Part shown: piece after piece, positions 8,718 to 62,513 of the stretch | Layout of the letters: each line of letters begins with the position of its first letter | Position numbering within the stretch: position 1 is the stretch's first letter | Virus record (IMG/VR): IMGVR_UViG_3300046517_001388 | Location: 1 to 63,216 of that record | Length of the DNA: 63,216 nt | Strand: one strand, 5' to 3' | Source: a virus | The notes under the pieces: generated by a model | The model's database searches: none | Told to the model about the DNA's origin: nothing | The model's input: the letters and a program-made list of their open reading frames with translations, nothing else | Position numbers and translations under genes: made by a program

Positions 8718-8924
8718 ATGGCGAGAAGCGGCGAACCCAAAATCAAGAAGGACCCAATGGCAGTCTTGTGGCTCAACACCCACCGCAACGTACTCAGTGA
8801 GGTTGCCAGGGCGTTAAAGGTATCGCCGCAATTCGTCTCCATGGTTCTGTATGGACGGCGTAAGAGCGAAGACCTGAGAGTGGAGCGGGCACTCAAGGAG
8901 AAGGGGGCCCCGATCAAGGTATGA
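8718..8924 (+). CDS. Small HTH DNA-binding protein
   Basis: A 68-residue protein with a clear helix-turn-helix: LSEVARALKVSPQFVSMVLY followed by GRRKSEDLRVERAL, as in XRE-type phage regulators. It sits directly before the glycosyltransferase island and overlaps it by 4 bp, so it may regulate that island or the phage switch. Confidence 0.65.
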   Translation: MARSGEPKIKKDPMAVLWLNTHRNVLSEVARALKVSPQFVSMVLYGRRKSEDLRVERALKEKGAPIKV

Positions 8925-10072
8925 GTGGGTTACAAAGCAACCAGCCTATCCCCATTCTCTTTTTGGGGGACGCGCCCGATTCGCACGGGGGACTCAGCCG
9001 GATTGGCCATGACCTAGCTTGGCTGGTGTCTTCCATGCCCGAGTTCCAGGTTGGGTACCTGGGCCGGGGAGCCGTGGGACGTGCCCGATTCCCGTGGGCC
9101 CAGTATTCGTATCCGGCTTACAGCGGGCAGTGGGGCGAGGATTATCTCGAAACCTGCTGGCAGGATCTGGCCGGGGACCGGAAGGGAATCATCTTCACCC
9201 TCTGGGATGCGTCGAGGCTCCTGTGGTTCGCTGATGGCCACGGCACCGGCATGGAGAAGTTCCTGGGCGGTGAAAGGTTTGAGCGGTGGGGATATTTCAT
9301 GGCCGATGCCAGTGGAGTCGAGCCCAATCTGCTGCCGATGGAACAGGGCAGTGTGCTGGGCAAGTACCGGCGGGTGGTCATGGCCAGCGAGTGGGCCTAC
9401 GGGCTCTACAGGCACGTTGCCGAAGGTGACCTGGACTGGCTTCCCCATCCGATCAACCGATCCATCTACAAGCCCGTGGACCGGCTCTACGCCCGCAGTG
9501 GCTGGGGAGTCGGGGAGAAGGAACTGGTGGTCGGGTGTGTCATGACCAACCAACAGAGGAAACTCTGGCCGGTGGTGCTCGATGCCGTCGCTGAGATGAA
9601 GGGCAGGCCCAAGCTCTGGATTCAGACCGACACGTTGACCGGCTACTGGAATCTGTATGCCCTGGCGGTGGAGTACGGGCTCCAGGATCGCATCCTGCAT
9701 GACCCCAGGCCGGTCAATGACCGGGAGATGGCCATGCGTTACTCAGCCTGCGATGTGACGGTGGTGATCAGTGGCGGCGAGGGGTTCTGCTATCCGGTGG
9801 CTGAGAGCCTGAGTTGCGGCACTCCGGTGGTGACCGGCGCGTATGGGGCCCAGGCCGAGTTGGTGCCGTGGACGGTCAAGCCGGTGGCCACCGTGATCGA
9901 GACCAGCCACAACGTGCGGCGGGCAGTCTACACGGCATACGGAGTGAGGACCGTGCTTGAGGCTGCTATCGGGGCCCGCTTCGATGTCGAGACCTGCGTC
10001 CATCTGGTCGAGCACCTGGACATGCCGAAGCTGGGTGTGCAGTGGAAGAGATGGTTTAGGAGGGGGTTATGA
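8921..10072 (+). CDS. GT-B glycosyltransferase (family 4-like)
   Basis: A 383-residue glycosyltransferase. The N-terminal half begins with a Rossmann strand and nucleotide-loop-like segment (PILFLGDAPDSHGGLSRIG). The C-terminal half holds the GT4/GT1 donor-binding motif EGFCYPVAESLSCGTPVV, where the Glu pair contacts the sugar nucleotide. A WLPHPINRSIYKP linker between domains is typical of the family. It would transfer a sugar to an acceptor that the sequence does not reveal (virion protein, DNA base or host surface glycan). It heads a run of modification genes linked by 4-bp overlaps. Confidence 0.85.
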   Translation: MSGLQSNQPIPILFLGDAPDSHGGLSRIGHDLAWLVSSMPEFQVGYLGRGAVGRARFPWAQYSYPAYSGQWGEDYLETCWQDLAGDRKGIIFTLWDASRLLWFADGHGTGMEKFLGGERFERWGYFMADASGVEPNLLPMEQGSVLGKYRRVVMASEWAYGLYRHVAEGDLDWLPHPINRSIYKPVDRLYARSGWGVGEKELVVGCVMTNQQRKLWPVVLDAVAEMKGRPKLWIQTDTLTGYWNLYALAVEYGLQDRILHDPRPVNDREMAMRYSACDVTVVISGGEGFCYPVAESLSCGTPVVTGAYGAQAELVPWTVKPVATVIETSHNVRRAVYTAYGVRTVLEAAIGARFDVETCVHLVEHLDMPKLGVQWKRWFRRGL

Positions 10073-56076: not shown

Positions 56077-56235
56077 CGAAGGCTGGTCAATCGTATTACT
56101 TTTCCTTCAAAAAGCCCAATGTTTAACGCTAACGTCAATAAATCTCAAAAAGACGGTAACTATTATCCATCTTGAGCGTCTTAATAACTTGGATACACGG
56201 TACGGCGAAACGAGATCGCCAATCAAAATCAAATC

Positions 56236-56245
56236 AAAGGACACC
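56236..56245 (+). promoter_or_regulatory. AAAGGACACC ribosome-binding box (six exact copies)
   Basis: Exact copies lie at 56236, 57316, 57867, 58730, 60620 and 61301, each 2-7 nt before an ATG (56252, 57328, 57879, 58742, 60632, 61318). Variants are AAAAGACACC before 60198 and AAATGACACC at 59160-59169. Several are preceded by an A-rich AATCAAAATCAA stretch. AAGGA is the Shine-Dalgarno core; the conserved CACC is unusual. Confidence 0.7.
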
Positions 56246-56251
56246 GAACTA

Positions 56252-57025
56252 ATGAAACGCCAAACGAAACAACCCAACGGTTACATACTGCACGAGACCA
56301 ACAACGTAGCTATCATCGCCACTGGTCTTAAAGGCTCTGCAAATGCCAAGACAGGGTCTATGGTTCAGATCTGGATCATTCCTCGCAATGTAGAGCCTCA
56401 CAAAGCCGTCAAATCTGGTCAGGACTCCATTGTCTGTTTTGATTGCAAGCACCGTCCTACCCTGGCCAGGAAAACAGGCGATGCCCCATGTTATGTAACG
56501 ACCTTCCAAGCGCCGTTATCGATCCACCGTGCCTATCATCGCGGCACCTACTCTCACCTGTCAGTGAGTCGCTACCCTGAGGTATTCAGTGGACGTGTGG
56601 TCCGGTTTGGCGCATGGGGTGAGCCTGTCCTGTTACCCGTTTCTAAGTTTCGCGCCATTGTCGCGGTATGTGCTGGTCACACTGGTTATACACATCAGTG
56701 GACTAAGCCGAAATATGCCGCTTATCGCGAGTTCCTCATGGCGTCCGTTGATACCGTTTCCGAAGCTGATCTGGCACGCGCTAATGGCTGGCGGTATTTC
56801 AGGATTCGCGAGTGGTCCGAAGCTTACAAAGTCCCCGCAGGTGAAATGGTTTGTCCTGCTAGCAATGAATTCGAATACACACGCGGCAAACGTCTGGACT
56901 GTGCAACGTGCCAAAGGTGCAATGGTTCGGCGTCGGGTGGTAACAGTGTCGCGATCTACAAGCACGGTGCTGGCAGGAAATGGTCCGATTCGCAGAAACT
57001 AATTCAGATTGGACAGGCGGCATAA
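56252..57025 (+). CDS. Conserved accessory protein with late Cys pairs
   Basis: A 257-residue protein starting at 56252 behind the AAAGGACACC box. It has HETNNVAIIATGLKGSANAK early and a Cys-containing C-terminus (MVCPASNEFEYTRGKRLDC, then ATCQRCNG). The centre is hydrophobic beta/alpha. Proteins like this occur in phages and plasmids; the metal-type end suggests nucleic-acid binding, but no function can be given. Confidence 0.6.
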   Translation: MKRQTKQPNGYILHETNNVAIIATGLKGSANAKTGSMVQIWIIPRNVEPHKAVKSGQDSIVCFDCKHRPTLARKTGDAPCYVTTFQAPLSIHRAYHRGTYSHLSVSRYPEVFSGRVVRFGAWGEPVLLPVSKFRAIVAVCAGHTGYTHQWTKPKYAAYREFLMASVDTVSEADLARANGWRYFRIREWSEAYKVPAGEMVCPASNEFEYTRGKRLDCATCQRCNGSASGGNSVAIYKHGAGRKWSDSQKLIQIGQAA

Positions 57026-57026
57026 C

Positions 57027-57194
57027 ATGCAGGCTCTAACTTTCATCTCTCTTATCCTCGCGCTAGTCATTCTATGCGCTGTTATCGTGCATCACATCAT
57101 GCGGCTAGTTAGTCGCGAACTGACAATCAGACGGTCTAACGCCCTGTTACGGGCATTCCTGGCCACATTGCCGAAAGGGGACCAGCTTGTATGA
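57027..57194 (+). CDS. Small membrane protein
   Basis: A 55-residue protein with one clear span (LTFISLILALVILCAVIVHH) then a basic cytoplasmic part. It starts one base after the previous stop. The ORF after it overlaps by ATGA. Confidence 0.55.
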   Translation: MQALTFISLILALVILCAVIVHHIMRLVSRELTIRRSNALLRAFLATLPKGDQLV

Positions 57195-57256
57195 TTCACA
57201 CCCTGACATCCCTGGTACGCCTGCTAATCCTGGTACGGAAACTGTATCGAGGCTAG
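57191..57256 (+). CDS. Possible 21-residue hydrophobic peptide
   Basis: A short ATGA-overlapping frame (MIHTLTSLVRLLILVRKLYR). It is amphipathic and basic, as some short membrane or leader peptides. Low confidence; no separate support. Confidence 0.25.
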   Translation: MIHTLTSLVRLLILVRKLYRG

Positions 57257-57269
57257 ATGCGTGACTTTC

Positions 57270-57325
57270 GGGCATTCTCACCAATGCCCCTAAGCCGGTA
57301 TCTAACCGGACATCGAAAGGACACC
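57270..57325 (+). ncRNA. Two-hairpin leader, copy A
   Basis: Hairpin 1: GGGCATT 57270-57276 with AATGCCC 57283-57289, loop CTCACC. Hairpin 2: CCGGT 57295-57299 with ACCGG 57305-57309, loop ATCTA. The AAAGGACACC box (57316-57325) and ATG 57328 follow. Copy B has the same shape with paired base changes, so the fold is under selection. Candidate cis-acting translation or processing element. Confidence 0.65.
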
Positions 57326-57327
57326 AA

Positions 57328-57570
57328 ATGAATACGTATAGCTTTGCAGTCTATGTGGGGCCCACTCAGGTGCACGTGCTGGCCGATGCATTTGAGGATG
57401 CCGGTGCAGTGGTCACTACTCGCGGTACGGAGCGAGTCTTTGTGGTCGAAGTGGGCGCAACCCCTGATGATGCACGCGGGCAATTCCTGGCACTCCTGAG
57501 GGCTCAATACGGGCATACCTTTGGCGTGACTTACCGGGACATGCGGTTTAATCGCGAAGTGGTGAACTAA
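57328..57570 (+). CDS. Small accessory protein
   Basis: An 80-residue protein behind leader A. It opens MNTYSFAVYVGPTQVHVLAD, a beta-alpha start, and looks like a compact alpha/beta fold (RVFVVEVGATPDDARGQFL). No motif. Confidence 0.6.
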   Translation: MNTYSFAVYVGPTQVHVLADAFEDAGAVVTTRGTERVFVVEVGATPDDARGQFLALLRAQYGHTFGVTYRDMRFNREVVN

Positions 57571-57572
57571 CC

Positions 57573-57803
57573 ATGGCACCTAAGCCTGTTCGCCTCGCAC
57601 GTACCCTTAACGGCTGGTCTGACGGCAACCTTGTGATCGTATTCCAGTCCTATAACCCGCCCGATACGCAACGGTGGTTCGCATCCTGGAAGGACATCTT
57701 CGGAGTCCAGCGCACCGTGCGGGAGTACACCCGCGAACGTCTTATGGAGCGACTCAGACCCTACGGCATGGGGCGGTACACGTTCGCACGGGAAACCAAG
57801 TAG
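57573..57803 (+). CDS. Small accessory protein
   Basis: A 76-residue protein following its neighbour by 2 bp. Basic and aromatic (PPDTQRWFASWKDIFGVQRT). It ends RYTFARETK. No motif. Confidence 0.55.
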   Translation: MAPKPVRLARTLNGWSDGNLVIVFQSYNPPDTQRWFASWKDIFGVQRTVREYTRERLMERLRPYGMGRYTFARETK

Positions 57804-57816
57804 GTATGTGACCTGT

Positions 57817-57876
57817 GGGCACTCTAACCAGTGCCCCATGGCCGATATCTAATCGGGGAAAGATCAAAAGGACACC
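57817..57876 (+). ncRNA. Two-hairpin leader, copy B
   Basis: Hairpin 1: GGGCACT 57817-57823 with AGTGCCC 57830-57836, loop CTAACC. Hairpin 2: CCGAT 57842-57846 with ATCGG 57852-57856, loop ATCTA. The box at 57867-57876 and ATG 57879 follow. Relative to copy A, one pair in each hairpin has changed with its partner (T:A to C:G; G:C to A:T). Confidence 0.65.
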
Positions 57877-57878
57877 AC

Positions 57879-58715
57879 ATGAAACTTACTTATAACGGCA
57901 TCAACTACAACCTGACCAGGGCCCAACTGGAAGGGCTCTGCAATGCGGCTGCTATGCAGTCCGGTACGTTCAGCATGGAACGCGCCAATGATCGCACCGA
58001 TGCGTACCTCAGCACGTTGGGCATCCTGGAAGAGGCCTATGTTGTTCGCGACCAGGACACGCGCAAGGTTCAAATGGACAGCGTGATACTGGACCTCGAA
58101 ACCGCTGCCGGTTTCATCGCACTGGGAGACCTGGAAAGCGCCGAAGAGAAGTCCAGCGATGCCCTGTATGCCCTCCGCGCATTGAACCGCAAGCGTTACT
58201 ACCTGACCGAGGTGGGTTACGGGATTGTGCGTACCCATTTCCCCATGGCGCTATGTTTCCTCCCTGGTAAGTACTCACACTTGGCCGGTCCCCTGTGCAC
58301 CTGTGGAGAGGGCAACGGGCCGGGACTGGCACACTGCCAGGGTTGTGCGCGGTACGTGGAACCCGTCCAGCCTGCCAAGCCCGTGGAGAGCCCCGTAGAG
58401 CCCGTGCAGCCCTGGCCTACGATCCATGCGGTTGCCGCCCAGCCGCTGCCCGCCACTGTCCTGGAACGGCTCATGAGCGATGAGCAGACCATCCTGGCCA
58501 CTCGCGAACCGGCAGACCGCATCCTGGTCTACAGCACCACCGGCCAGCCCGTCATGAATGGTGACACCGCTACCTTGCGCGATGGCGAAGTCGTCACGGT
58601 GGTCGGCATCCAGCTTCCCCGGCATGCTGGCTCCACAGGGCGGGTTGAAGTTAAACTACAGAACGGCCAGACCTGCGAGTATTACCCCGGCGTCATCGGG
58701 GCGGAATGGCGGTAA
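57879..58715 (+). CDS. Accessory protein with Cys-rich centre
   Basis: A 278-residue protein behind leader B. It has a helical N-terminus (TRAQLEGLCNAAAMQSGTFS), a metal-type centre CTCGEGNGPGLAHCQGCARY, and then an acidic, Pro-rich linker (EPVQPAKPVESPVEPVQPWP). The C-terminal part is beta-rich (DGEVVTVVGIQLPRHAGSTG), like an SH3-type domain. Possible nucleic-acid or glycan-binding scaffold. Confidence 0.55.
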   Translation: MKLTYNGINYNLTRAQLEGLCNAAAMQSGTFSMERANDRTDAYLSTLGILEEAYVVRDQDTRKVQMDSVILDLETAAGFIALGDLESAEEKSSDALYALRALNRKRYYLTEVGYGIVRTHFPMALCFLPGKYSHLAGPLCTCGEGNGPGLAHCQGCARYVEPVQPAKPVESPVEPVQPWPTIHAVAAQPLPATVLERLMSDEQTILATREPADRILVYSTTGQPVMNGDTATLRDGEVVTVVGIQLPRHAGSTGRVEVKLQNGQTCEYYPGVIGAEWR

Positions 58716-58741
58716 GGAATCAGACCATCAAAGGACACCAT

Positions 58742-59086
58742 ATGCGAATCGTAAATCAAGCTACTGAAACAGACGCCAAGCTCACCGGCATGGCATTTCC
58801 GGCCAATGATTGGGAGGCGCGGTCTAAGGCCCGCCAAGCCGCTGCCAAGGCCATCGTAGACGCACTGGGGGCACCGATTGACCTGTCCCGGCCTGCCAAG
58901 GTTGCCCATGATGCCAAGACAGATCGCTACCAGATCACCTGGACTGTGGGGGACGCTACCCTGACCCTCAAGGCTACCGATGAGGTGGCGGCATTTGTAG
59001 CGCAGCACGTTCGCATGGCGGGCACCTGGATTGGCCGCATGGAAGCGGGCGTATTGGTTGACGTGTACCTGATCACTGTCTGCTAG
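58742..59086 (+). CDS. Small accessory protein
   Basis: A 114-residue protein behind an exact AAAGGACACC box. It reads as an alpha/beta fold (RQAAAKAIVDALGAPIDLS, then YQITWTVGDATLTLKATDEV). No motif recognised. Confidence 0.5.
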   Translation: MRIVNQATETDAKLTGMAFPANDWEARSKARQAAAKAIVDALGAPIDLSRPAKVAHDAKTDRYQITWTVGDATLTLKATDEVAAFVAQHVRMAGTWIGRMEAGVLVDVYLITVC

Positions 59087-59098
59087 GCATGTACCTTC

Positions 59099-59145
59099 GG
59101 GCTCTTATCACCGAGAGCCCCTTGGCCTGCGCCTATCACGCCAGG
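59099..59145 (+). ncRNA. Two-hairpin leader, copy C (divergent)
   Basis: Hairpin 1: GGGCTCT 59099-59105 with AGAGCCC 59114-59120 (loop TATCACCG, whose end bases may add a U-G pair). A second, weaker CCTG/CAGG hairpin lies at 59126-59145. The ATG of the next gene is at 59162, or 59171 behind AAATGACACC. This stem 1 again keeps pairing with changed bases. Confidence 0.5.
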
Positions 59146-59161
59146 AGAAACGAGTTATCAA

Positions 59162-59467
59162 ATGACACCGATGGAAACCAAGATCAACAAGGGCCTGCTG
59201 GAACACGCTGCCGGGACGCACATCTTTTGCCCCCGCTGCCGCCAGATCATGGACTGCCGCCGCACCGTGCTGGTCACCTTCACTCAGACCAATGGCGGCA
59301 TGAAGACCTGGACTATGTGCGCGGCCTGCTATGACCGCATCAAACTGGAACTCCATGACCTTGTCCTGGGCATGAAGGGCACTCTGGATGTGGTTGATGG
59401 CCGGGAAGTGTTTGCCCGTGCCCCTCGCACCCGCAAAGCCACCACCGCCGTTCAGGAGGTCCAGTAA
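59162..59467 (+). CDS. Zinc-ribbon accessory protein
   Basis: A 101-residue protein. CPRCRQIMDCRRTV and the later MCAACYDRI give two CxxC pairs. The start could be 59162 or the second ATG at 59171, which follows AAATGACACC. Likely metal-binding. Confidence 0.55.
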   Translation: MTPMETKINKGLLEHAAGTHIFCPRCRQIMDCRRTVLVTFTQTNGGMKTWTMCAACYDRIKLELHDLVLGMKGTLDVVDGREVFARAPRTRKATTAVQEVQ

Positions 59468-59469
59468 CC

Positions 59470-59871
59470 ATGGCCACACCGAAACTAAGCACCAAAGCAT
59501 GGGCCGAGCTTGCCAAGTTAGCCGCACGCACTCAGCCTTTCGAGCGGTACGCGACTGATCCCAGCTTGCTCTCACAATTGGAAGATGCTGGGATGGTTCA
59601 CGCCATGGAAGGGATTGCCGCCCTGGCCGAGGTCCACACGCGCTTACGTGCCGGGATCACCGCTGCCATCCAAGCCGCCCACGCCGCACTGGATGCCGGT
59701 GACTATGCCGAGGTCAAACGGCTGATGTCCGATGCCGAGTACAACCAAGTGCTGATCAATCACGCCACTGATGACGGTGACGGGTGCCCCATGTTCTATC
59801 TGGTCTCCTATGCTGGCCGATTCCAACTCGCGCAGCATGAGAGCCGCAAGCGCAACAAGGGGGTCCAGTAA
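59470..59871 (+). CDS. Small helical accessory protein
   Basis: A 133-residue Ala-rich helical protein (AWAELAKLAARTQPFERYAT, then AAIQAAHAALDAGDYAEVKR). No motif. Follows the zinc-ribbon gene by 2 bp. Confidence 0.5.
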   Translation: MATPKLSTKAWAELAKLAARTQPFERYATDPSLLSQLEDAGMVHAMEGIAALAEVHTRLRAGITAAIQAAHAALDAGDYAEVKRLMSDAEYNQVLINHATDDGDGCPMFYLVSYAGRFQLAQHESRKRNKGVQ

Positions 59872-59873
59872 CC

Positions 59874-60095
59874 ATGCCCGCCAATCGCGCTACCAGCCCC
59901 TCCAGGCCCCCGGTTCAGGTCCCCACCATGCACGAGGTGCGCGTTGCCCTCGCGAGGCACTGGGGACTCCGCAACGGGCTCAAATGCAACAAGGGCGGAT
60001 GGGTTCGCTCCACCGTCAACAACCGTGTGATCGGGCAGGGATGGTGCACCGTGTATCGCCGCCACTACCAGACCATCTGGGCTCAGTTCCAATAG
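59874..60095 (+). CDS. Small basic accessory protein
   Basis: A 73-residue protein rich in Arg and aromatic residues (VRVALARHWGLRNGLKCNKG). May bind nucleic acid. Follows its neighbour by 2 bp. Confidence 0.45.
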   Translation: MPANRATSPSRPPVQVPTMHEVRVALARHWGLRNGLKCNKGGWVRSTVNNRVIGQGWCTVYRRHYQTIWAQFQ

Positions 60096-60197
60096 GCCGG
60101 TAGCTCACTAGCGCATCCTGTCGCAGCAGGGTGCCCAGTGGGGGCTGCTACGCCACCCAATAAAGCGTTACATTTAAACAGGAGATCAAAAGACACC

Positions 60198-60434
60198 ATG
60201 ACCAAACAGACAGTGACCAACGCACGGGTGATTTGGGATACCGATCACGGTGCCGAGAACCAGGGCTGGTATGTCCGGTTCAGCCTGGACGACGGCCAGG
60301 AACGCGACGTACCGTTTGAGGCACGCCGGGATATCGGCCTGGACCGCGCACGCAAGCAGGCCCGTCTAGAGGCTCGTAACGAGGGCTTCCACATGCCCAA
60401 CGGCACACCGGTCCAGATTGAAGGTCAGGCATAA
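60198..60434 (+). CDS. Small accessory protein
   Basis: A 78-residue protein starting at 60198 behind AAAAGACACC. Its pattern (TNARVIWDTDHGAENQGWYV) resembles a short beta-rich domain. No motif. Confidence 0.5.
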   Translation: MTKQTVTNARVIWDTDHGAENQGWYVRFSLDDGQERDVPFEARRDIGLDRARKQARLEARNEGFHMPNGTPVQIEGQA

Positions 60435-60437
60435 CCC

Positions 60438-60635
60438 ATGAGCAGGCGCATCCGGTTTAGCGTCAAGGAACTGGACCTCATTGCCGACATGTGCGCCATC
60501 GCATCCGCCGCCGCATGGGGTGAAGGCGACTACCAGGATTGGAACGAATCCACCGGCAAGGTCTACGACTCCCTGCGTGACAAAGTAAGTGAACTGTTAA
60601 GCCGTAAACAATCTCAATCAAAGGACACCAAATGA
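60438..60635 (+). CDS. Small accessory protein
   Basis: A 65-residue helical protein (FSVKELDLIADMCAIASAAA). Its end overlaps the next gene by 4 bp. Confidence 0.5.
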   Translation: MSRRIRFSVKELDLIADMCAIASAAAWGEGDYQDWNESTGKVYDSLRDKVSELLSRKQSQSKDTK

Positions 60636-61027
60636 ACTCTTACGAACAAGATCAGAAACTGGTACAGGATGCCGCCGCGCTATTCCCTGCCACCTTCGGC
60701 TTACGAGCCTTCCCCGGCGACACCTTTCGCATCGGCTTGAGATCCTCCTACACGAGCGGCTCCCAGGTCATGCTCTACACCGAACGGCTGGCCGCTGATG
60801 GCCGGTGGCAGTCATTCGCCAAGGGCACCCCTGCCGAGTTGCAGGCCGAGGTCATCGCCGCACCCAAGCCGGGAGTCTACGTTGTCCGTTACCGTCAGGT
60901 GAAAGATAGCTCTCAGGGTACCTACGATGTCATCCACGCTCCCACCGGCAACTACATGGACTGCTTTGATGTCCGTAGCTGGGCACAAGCGCATGCTGAC
61001 CACCTGAACTCTTTGGAGGGCAAGTAA
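60632..61027 (+). CDS. Small accessory protein
   Basis: A 131-residue protein behind an exact AAAGGACACC box. Mixed alpha/beta (ALFPATFGLRAFPGDTFRIG, then GVYVVRYRQVKDSSQGTYDV). No motif. Confidence 0.5.
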   Translation: MNSYEQDQKLVQDAAALFPATFGLRAFPGDTFRIGLRSSYTSGSQVMLYTERLAADGRWQSFAKGTPAELQAEVIAAPKPGVYVVRYRQVKDSSQGTYDVIHAPTGNYMDCFDVRSWAQAHADHLNSLEGK

Positions 61028-61029
61028 CC

Positions 61030-61287
61030 ATGACCCTACCCACCATCCATTTGAACGGCACGCATCCCCGTGATCTGCTGGAAGACCAGATGGCCGTTAC
61101 CAATGCCCTGAGGGCCGCGATTGAATCGATGCAACGCGCCTGTCCGAATGGCCGGGACTACTACCCGCAAAGCTCCACGGCCTTCCAGGCTGCAATGGAT
61201 GAGCACCGGGACCGCATCCTGAAACTGACCAACGTACTCCGCGAAGTGGAAGCCATCATGGATCACCTCGCCAGCAACCAACGGTAA
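61030..61287 (+). CDS. Small accessory protein
   Basis: An 85-residue protein, helical (EHRDRILKLTNVLREVEAIM), last of the small genes before the recombinase. No motif. Confidence 0.5.
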   Translation: MTLPTIHLNGTHPRDLLEDQMAVTNALRAAIESMQRACPNGRDYYPQSSTAFQAAMDEHRDRILKLTNVLREVEAIMDHLASNQR

Positions 61288-61317
61288 CCAAATCAAAATC
61301 AAAGGACACCGAAAACT

Positions 61318-62319
61318 ATGAGCCAAGATCTAATTCCCTCCCCTCAGGTTGACCTGCTCAAATTGGTTGACCTAGCCGTGGCCACCTGCCCGAGCCGTCA
61401 CACGCGCAGAGCCTATGCCAGCCGCATCACTGAGTTTTTGAAGACCGGCCTCTCCTTGGACCGGGACGGGCTGGCCACCCACCTCCAGGCCCTCCAGAAG
61501 GCCGGGAAAGGCAAGCCAGAACAGAGGCTGACCATGGCCGCGATCCGCAAGCTGGCCAGCGAGGCTCAGTTGCGCGGTCTGATCTCTCACGGGACCTTGG
61601 CCAGCATGGTCAGCGTGAGCCCTGGCCGGTACACCTCGACTAAGAGCGGGCAGTGGTTGACGGTGGAGGAGCTGCAGCAACTCTCAGCCGCACCGGATCG
61701 CACCACCTACTGGGGCCTGCGGGATGCCGCCGTTCTCAGTGTCCTGGCCGGTTGCGGCCTGCGCCGGTCAGAGGCGGCGGAACTGCCCTGGTCCTGCTAC
61801 GCCTCACGCGAGGGCCGGATGTGTTTGGTGGACTTTGTCGGCAAGGGCGGCAAGGTTCGCACGGTGCCGGTGCCCAAGTGGGCCGAGCGCGATATCGACG
61901 CCTGGAAGAAAGCTTTCCCCAACGTCCCCACCGATTCTGCCCACACCAATCTGGGCGCAACCAAGCGGCACTCGGAACGCCGCGATACCCGTCTGATGTT
62001 TGGGGGCCTGGGTGACCAGGGCATCTCTAAGGCCGTAAGCAGGTACGCAGAGGTCCTGGGCTATGACCTGAGCCCTCATGACCTGCGCCGTACCCTGGCC
62101 AAGCTCCTGCGGTCTGCCGGGGCCCCTCTGGAGCAGATCCAATACACGCTGGGCCATGCCGACATCAAGACCACCATGATCTACCTGGGCCACCACATCA
62201 GCCTGCGGGCCGGTGAGGCAGCGGTGGACAAGATCCTGATGGGCTACGAGGTGGAGCGCAACCCTGAGAGCCGCGACGATATCGCCCGAGGCATCGTGCC
62301 GGTGGAGGTGGGCGCATGA
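61318..62319 (+). CDS. XerC/D-like tyrosine recombinase
   Basis: A 333-residue recombinase with the full tyrosine-recombinase set: Arg149 (CGLRRSE), Lys176 (VGKGGKV), His254/Arg257 (PHDLRRTL), His280 (LGHADIKTT) and Tyr289 (MIYLGHH). It opens behind an AAAGGACACC box. This type resolves multimers or acts in plasmid/phage integration. A second, non-identical recombinase (45088) is in the same phage, so the roles may be divided: one for integration, one for dimer resolution. Confidence 0.85.
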   Translation: MSQDLIPSPQVDLLKLVDLAVATCPSRHTRRAYASRITEFLKTGLSLDRDGLATHLQALQKAGKGKPEQRLTMAAIRKLASEAQLRGLISHGTLASMVSVSPGRYTSTKSGQWLTVEELQQLSAAPDRTTYWGLRDAAVLSVLAGCGLRRSEAAELPWSCYASREGRMCLVDFVGKGGKVRTVPVPKWAERDIDAWKKAFPNVPTDSAHTNLGATKRHSERRDTRLMFGGLGDQGISKAVSRYAEVLGYDLSPHDLRRTLAKLLRSAGAPLEQIQYTLGHADIKTTMIYLGHHISLRAGEAAVDKILMGYEVERNPESRDDIARGIVPVEVGA

Positions 62320-62513
62320 CCCATAAATGGCTGGTCTATTACGAGGCTCAGTATCTGCGGGCCCTCGATACCGCCACCGTGCTGGGGTGCCGCCTGGACT
62401 TGATCCACTGCTGCGCCGTCTGGAATCTGGATGCCGAGGAATACGAGTGGCTCAGGCACTATCTGGAGATCCGGGGGATTGCCACTCAGTGGCCGGTGGA
62501 GGTGGCTGCATGA
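62316..62513 (+). CDS. Small protein
   Basis: A 65-residue protein starting 4 bp inside the recombinase gene. Aromatic helical pattern (HKWLVYYEAQYLRALDTATV). No motif. Confidence 0.5.
   Translation: MTHKWLVYYEAQYLRALDTATVLGCRLDLIHCCAVWNLDAEEYEWLRHYLEIRGIATQWPVEVAA

Follow-up and report, generated by a model that had tools for sequence, protein, structure and literature searches.

Repeated two-hairpin leaders ahead of start codons in a phage small-gene operon: a well-supported RNA fold with a possible role in translation initiation

In phage T7, the RNase III sites are hairpins placed between early genes, just before the ribosome-binding sites, and they are formed by long helices (about two turns) with internal loops. 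Start-associated boxes with upstream extensions are already known from the cluster K mycobacteriophages, in which they are still unexplained. The authors who described the ESAS of these phages found no support for RNA pairing in its base changes and proposed a function at the DNA level (PMC3203893), and a SigA-like promoter was later proposed within the ESAS repeat (PMC11373665). The put RNA of phage HK022, which is present in early transcripts, comprises about 70 nt with two stem-loops; it lies downstream of the early promoters and binds the beta' zinc-binding domain (PMC9378689).

The stretch analyzed here, referred to as the window, is an IMG/VR virus record of 63,216 bp, which represents a tailed, integrase-bearing and probably temperate phage, most likely of soil bacteria. 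The right end of the window (about 56,190-62,510) is occupied by a small-gene operon that runs rightward and includes a tyrosine integrase close to its end. The first gene of this operon (56252-57025, + strand) was assigned to phrog_2554, a family of unknown function; it carries conserved cysteines, and its relatives, with identities up to 48%, come from Mycobacterium, Gordonia, Klebsiella, Caulobacter and Roseobacter phages. In the left part of the window, a ParB-like protein (778-1728, +) and a glycosyltransferase-like protein (8921-10072, +) were observed. A search with the portal protein retrieved 29 related viral contigs. Tunturiibacter (Acidobacteriota) is the host of the nearest named phages, but their portal identity is 22%, so that a soil Acidobacteriota host is considered likely with low confidence only. 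These Tunturi phages are distant and organized differently. The right-arm plan of the window is common to two relatives, G005 (78% identity in the portal protein, 47% in the integrase and 37% in the homologue of the gene after leader C) and G019 (portal 70%, integrase 40%).

Within the operon, three leaders, termed A, B and C, span the whole interval from the stop codon of the previous gene to the start of the next one, on the sense strand, and each ends in a ATCRAAAGGACACC-type box followed by an ATG. Leader A (57258-57327, +) extends from the stop codon of a small upstream ORF to the ATG at 57328 and comprises hairpin 1 (57270-57289, +; GGGCATT-ctcacc-AATGCCC, 7 bp, loop CTCACC), hairpin 2 (57295-57309, +; CCGGT-atcta-ACCGG, 5 bp, loop ATCTA) and the start-associated box ATCGAAAGGACACC (57312-57325, +). 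Leader B (57804-57878, +), between the stop codon of the gene at 57573-57803 and the ATG at 57879, has the same parts, namely hairpin 1 (57817-57836, +; GGGCACT-ctaacc-AGTGCCC, 7 bp, loop CTAACC), hairpin 2 (57842-57856, +; CCGAT-atcta-ATCGG, 5 bp, loop ATCTA) and the box ATCAAAAGGACACC (57863-57876, +). The two leaders are duplicates (76% identity, E 5.6e-11), and the coordinates and sequences given for them in the initial annotation, with the common ATCTA loop, the box and the ATG, were all recovered. Leader C (59087-59170, +) is a more diverged copy that matches the covariance model built from A-C and fills the gap from the stop codon of the gene at 58742-59086 to the ATG at 59171 (or 59162). 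Its hairpin 1 (59099-59120, +; GGGCTCT-tatcaccg-AGAGCCC) is followed by a weaker hairpin 2 (59126-59145, +), paired in another register. Across both strands of the 63 kb, the tandem of perfect 7-bp and 5-bp hairpins was found only at A and B, where it stands ahead of the box and ATG, and perfect 7-bp hairpins starting with GGGC (loop of 5-8) occur in the window only at A, B and C. A further leader, D (60096-60197, +), is structured and unrelated to A-C; it ends in the variant box ATCAAAAGACACC (60185-60197), immediately before the ATG at 60198.

The comparison between copies provides the main evidence for a fold acting as RNA. Of the 40 bases of the hairpin region, 8 are different between A and B, 4 in stems and 4 unpaired, and the stem differences correspond to exactly two compensated pairs (T:A to C:G in hairpin 1 and G:C to A:T in hairpin 2, from A to B, as the initial annotation had described), with no uncompensated stem difference. 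By Monte Carlo simulation, the chance of such compensation was about 0.0003 for 8 random substitutions and 0.0009 when 4 were placed in stems. The stem GGGCTCT/AGAGCCC reported for copy C was likewise verified, with 7 of 7 hairpin 1 pairs kept, and over A-C hairpin 1 presents two pairs altered on both sides. When the three copies were considered together, 4 pairs had changed on both sides versus 1.4 expected by shuffling (4 was reached in 7 of 500 shuffles), although 1 of the 4, in hairpin 2 of C, rests on an alignment unlike C's own fold, so that 3 is the safer count. Shifting the structure by 1-3 columns abolished every both-side change. An independent instance was found in G019, in which a pair of leaders (L213, 9694-9730 and 10283-10319) has the flanks GCGCCTAG and ACTGGCG unchanged but encloses between them 7-bp stems of different sequence; here 4 of 4 changed stem pairs are still paired, one G-U pair included. 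As this pair consists of two sequences, its shuffle control is weak (40 of 500), and sliding the structure breaks the compensation.

Due to these within-genome compensated changes and to the independent 4/4 instance in the leaders of a related phage, the proposal that the leaders form a selected RNA fold, already put forward in the initial annotation, is well supported. The opposite reading, that a stretch forming hairpins by chance was recently duplicated and has no function, could draw on the small number of sequences, with only three sequence-similar copies; however, it accounts poorly for compensated changes in two phages and for a box and leader layout that recurs in relatives, and it is given very little credence.

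The box ATCAAAGGACACC follows each of the copies A-C, in mutated form in C. In the window, six exact AAAGGACACC boxes were found between 56236 and 61310, all of them on the + strand and before starts, and the exact box occurs nowhere else. Lone boxes, devoid of hairpins, are located on the + strand at 56233-56245 (before the ATG at 56252), 58727-58739 (before 58742), 60617-60629 (before 60632) and 61298-61310 (before the integrase ATG at 61318). Copy C does carry the box, mutated to ATCAAATGACACC (59157-59169, +), and GATG comes next. This arrangement points to the ATG at 59162 as a product of the box mutation and to 59171 as the original start, so that the gene may begin at 59171 rather than at 59162. 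The box core AAAGGA can pair with the 3' end of the 16S rRNA, whereas the flanking ATC and CACC are not expected to do so; the conservation of the box thus exceeds that of a plain ribosome-binding site, and the same reasoning has been applied to the SAS of cluster K phages (PMC3203893). In the window and in G005, the presence of hairpins follows the length of the gap: gaps of about 23-30 nt contain the box alone, and those of at least 70 nt contain hairpins too.

In both relatives, the box and structured leaders lie ahead of the integrase in the same operon, and their hairpin sequences differ from those of the window. G005 carries, all in the right arm, five boxes that read AATCGAAAGGACAC(C) or are close to it, two of them alone after short gaps and three behind hairpin-rich leaders. 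G019 has one AAAGGACAC box behind two hairpins, and several more structured leaders. On the other hand, the box is absent from the relatives G020, G017, G012 and G018, all of which were examined, indicating that only part of the lineage has the system; the box was not found in the 43 kb of Tunturi_2 examined either. In another relative (G013, L231, about 22604 and 24631), the palindromic hairpin GGCGGCTCGCGAGCCGCC occurs twice, each time between the same flanks and upstream of a small-gene start close to the integrase.

The loops of these leaders raise the possibility that the stem-loops are sites for a phage-encoded RNA-binding protein, which would turn early genes up or down jointly through phage-specific loops (ATCTA here, CTGTTA in G005). 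In fact, the hairpin loops and the box are better conserved between copies than the linkers, and two G005 leaders have in common the loop GCTGTTA and the box over different stems, GAGC/GCTC and GGGG/CCCC (a 1-base loop difference being allowed). However, no candidate protein was identified, and the shared loops could result from recent duplication by itself, which makes this reading unlikely, even if it comes first among the possible alternatives, ahead of RNA processing, DNA operators and put-like antitermination, in this order. A broader version, in which the leaders of a soil-phage lineage are read by such a protein through phage-specific loops and constitute a translational regulon of small early genes, is also regarded as doubtful.

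The folding energies were in line with structured leaders. For 13 operon leaders from the three phages, the mean z was -2.9, versus -0.17 for 120 random stretches from the same arms (p 1.8e-7), in a test that was not blind, since the leaders were chosen by eye from the gaps of the three operons. Single leaders gave z of -3.9 (A), -1.9 (C), -1.2 (B) and -1.0 (D), those of B and D being not significant. A cruder genome-wide gap scan based on a custom gene caller pointed in the same direction, and it missed A and B because the caller extended genes upstream. Additionally, the hairpins leave the box uncovered, and opening the box and the start codon costs only 2.4-3.4 kcal/mol. A Shine-Dalgarno-masking switch, in which a 5' strand of the leader pairs with the box, was attractive in A but was rejected, because the best pairing was no better than in shuffled sequences (19%, 36% and 96% of trials for A, B and C, respectively). 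A conserved leader peptide was also discarded, given that the frame is open in A and C and is broken by a TAA in B.

No further copy or known family was retrieved by sequence. The covariance model of A-C matched only its own three training copies, apart from a weak match within small-gene sequence of G020 that looks like chance. Therefore, the claim of a wider family is founded on position, box and structure and not on similarity of hairpin sequence: the model search proposed in the initial annotation yielded no additional sequence-alike copy, whereas relatives do have analogous leaders with the same box in the same place, so that the annotation withstood its own refuting test only by half. 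In Rfam, nothing reached the gathering score, and a relaxed threshold gave a single chance-level match (E 1.1). When public viral contigs were scanned with leader and box patterns, one match lay in the coding sequence of a terminase and another was a terminator-like hairpin of an unrelated phage, both dismissed as chance; another such scan gave zero matches, and a box scan gave, among the matches listed, only single scattered ones at chance level. A pattern scan of genome contigs returned six isolated matches, all lacking hairpin 1. In the genomes of two Nonomuraea species (L168 and L170), the exact hairpin 2 GCCGGTATCTAACCGG was observed within a larger inverted repeat ending in GTGAAAGGA, with no hairpin 1, which is probably a coincidence. 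The genes after copies A and B had no detectable relatives in the searches made, and with the first gene of the operon as query, the phages retrieved lacked the box and no relative was obtained among genomes. As far as Rfam, patterns in public viral and genome contigs and the model beyond A-C can tell, the element is thus undescribed, as had been supposed. Finally, no promoter pattern was found in the leaders, and no terminator-like site (a G+C-rich hairpin plus a T run) was found at them.

While the structure is well supported, the function that we infer is that these repeated cis-acting mRNA leaders are insulated translation-initiation sites, one per gene in a polycistronic message, a reading held with about even confidence. 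It is based on the compensated stems, the position of the hairpins, the boxes before starts, the leaders of relatives, the better folding, the cheap opening and the lack of promoter or terminator. The leader is duplicated within the rightward small-gene operon and presents, in order, two stable stem-loops, a box ATCAAAGGACACC read here as a phage-specific extended Shine-Dalgarno sequence, and an ATG. According to this proposal, the stem-loops would hold the box single-stranded, block the neighboring coding sequence from pairing with it and give ribosomes a fixed landing place, so that a gene behind a long gap would be translated independently inside the polycistronic message; genes behind short gaps carry the box alone. 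The effect would then be on translation initiation rather than on mRNA stability, and a dedicated trans-acting factor would be unnecessary. If true, this would offer a tractable system for studying how translation of the numerous small genes of one operon is adjusted in phages. The observation from which the analysis started was confirmed, and its interpretation, as a selected RNA fold that may be an undescribed translation or processing element, was partly supported.

Regarding the known systems, the leaders resemble the T7-type RNase III sites in that their hairpins are also intergenic and directly ahead of ribosome-binding sites. The hairpins could accordingly be seen as processing or stabilizing elements that split the operon into protected units, as in T7 early mRNA, considering the intercistronic location and the long imperfect hairpins of the G005 and G019 leaders. 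However, such longer helices are found only in those relatives; with 7 and 5 bp, the A-C stems are short as RNase III substrates, making processing of A-C by this enzyme unlikely, and the box-only gaps have no hairpin. Translation is tentatively favored over RNA processing as the level of action, and the processing reading is considered quite unlikely as a whole. The HK022 put RNA offers another likeness, since here too two stem-loops lie in about 70 nt and are repeated in a phage operon, and a put-like antiterminator would imply that the two-hairpin RNA, while still nascent, attaches to RNA polymerase and takes it past operon terminators. Nevertheless, HK022 put follows early promoters, whereas the present leaders, in more than two copies, lie in mid-operon beside start codons and against ribosome-binding sites, with short perfect stems; this siting argues against a put-type element, which is judged very improbable.

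The closest likeness is to SAS/ESAS. In both cases, the box is short, asymmetric and more extended than a plain ribosome-binding site; it precedes by a few bases the start codons of some of the non-structural genes, in one orientation and within one genome arm, and some boxes have an upstream inverted-repeat extension, which is favored at long gaps. The elements differ in the box itself, whose 13-bp consensus is GGGATAGGAGCCC in cluster K, and in the extension, since ESAS consists of paired 17-bp imperfect repeats and the leaders of two separate short hairpins with arms of 7 and 5 bp. As argued for ESAS (PMC3203893, PMC11373665), the inverted repeats could act as DNA, either as operators or as promoters, and palindromes upstream of a start-associated box are indeed ESAS-like. 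However, no SigA-like or other promoter-like site was seen in the leaders, and their base changes are compensated: stem sequence varies while pairing is kept, including the G-U pair of G019, which fits an RNA better than a sequence-specific DNA site and leaves the DNA-level reading improbable. The leaders would therefore be analogous to SAS/ESAS but built on RNA structure and, if they are insulated initiation sites, a SAS-like layout would recur in an unrelated phage lineage, this time with a clear RNA structure.
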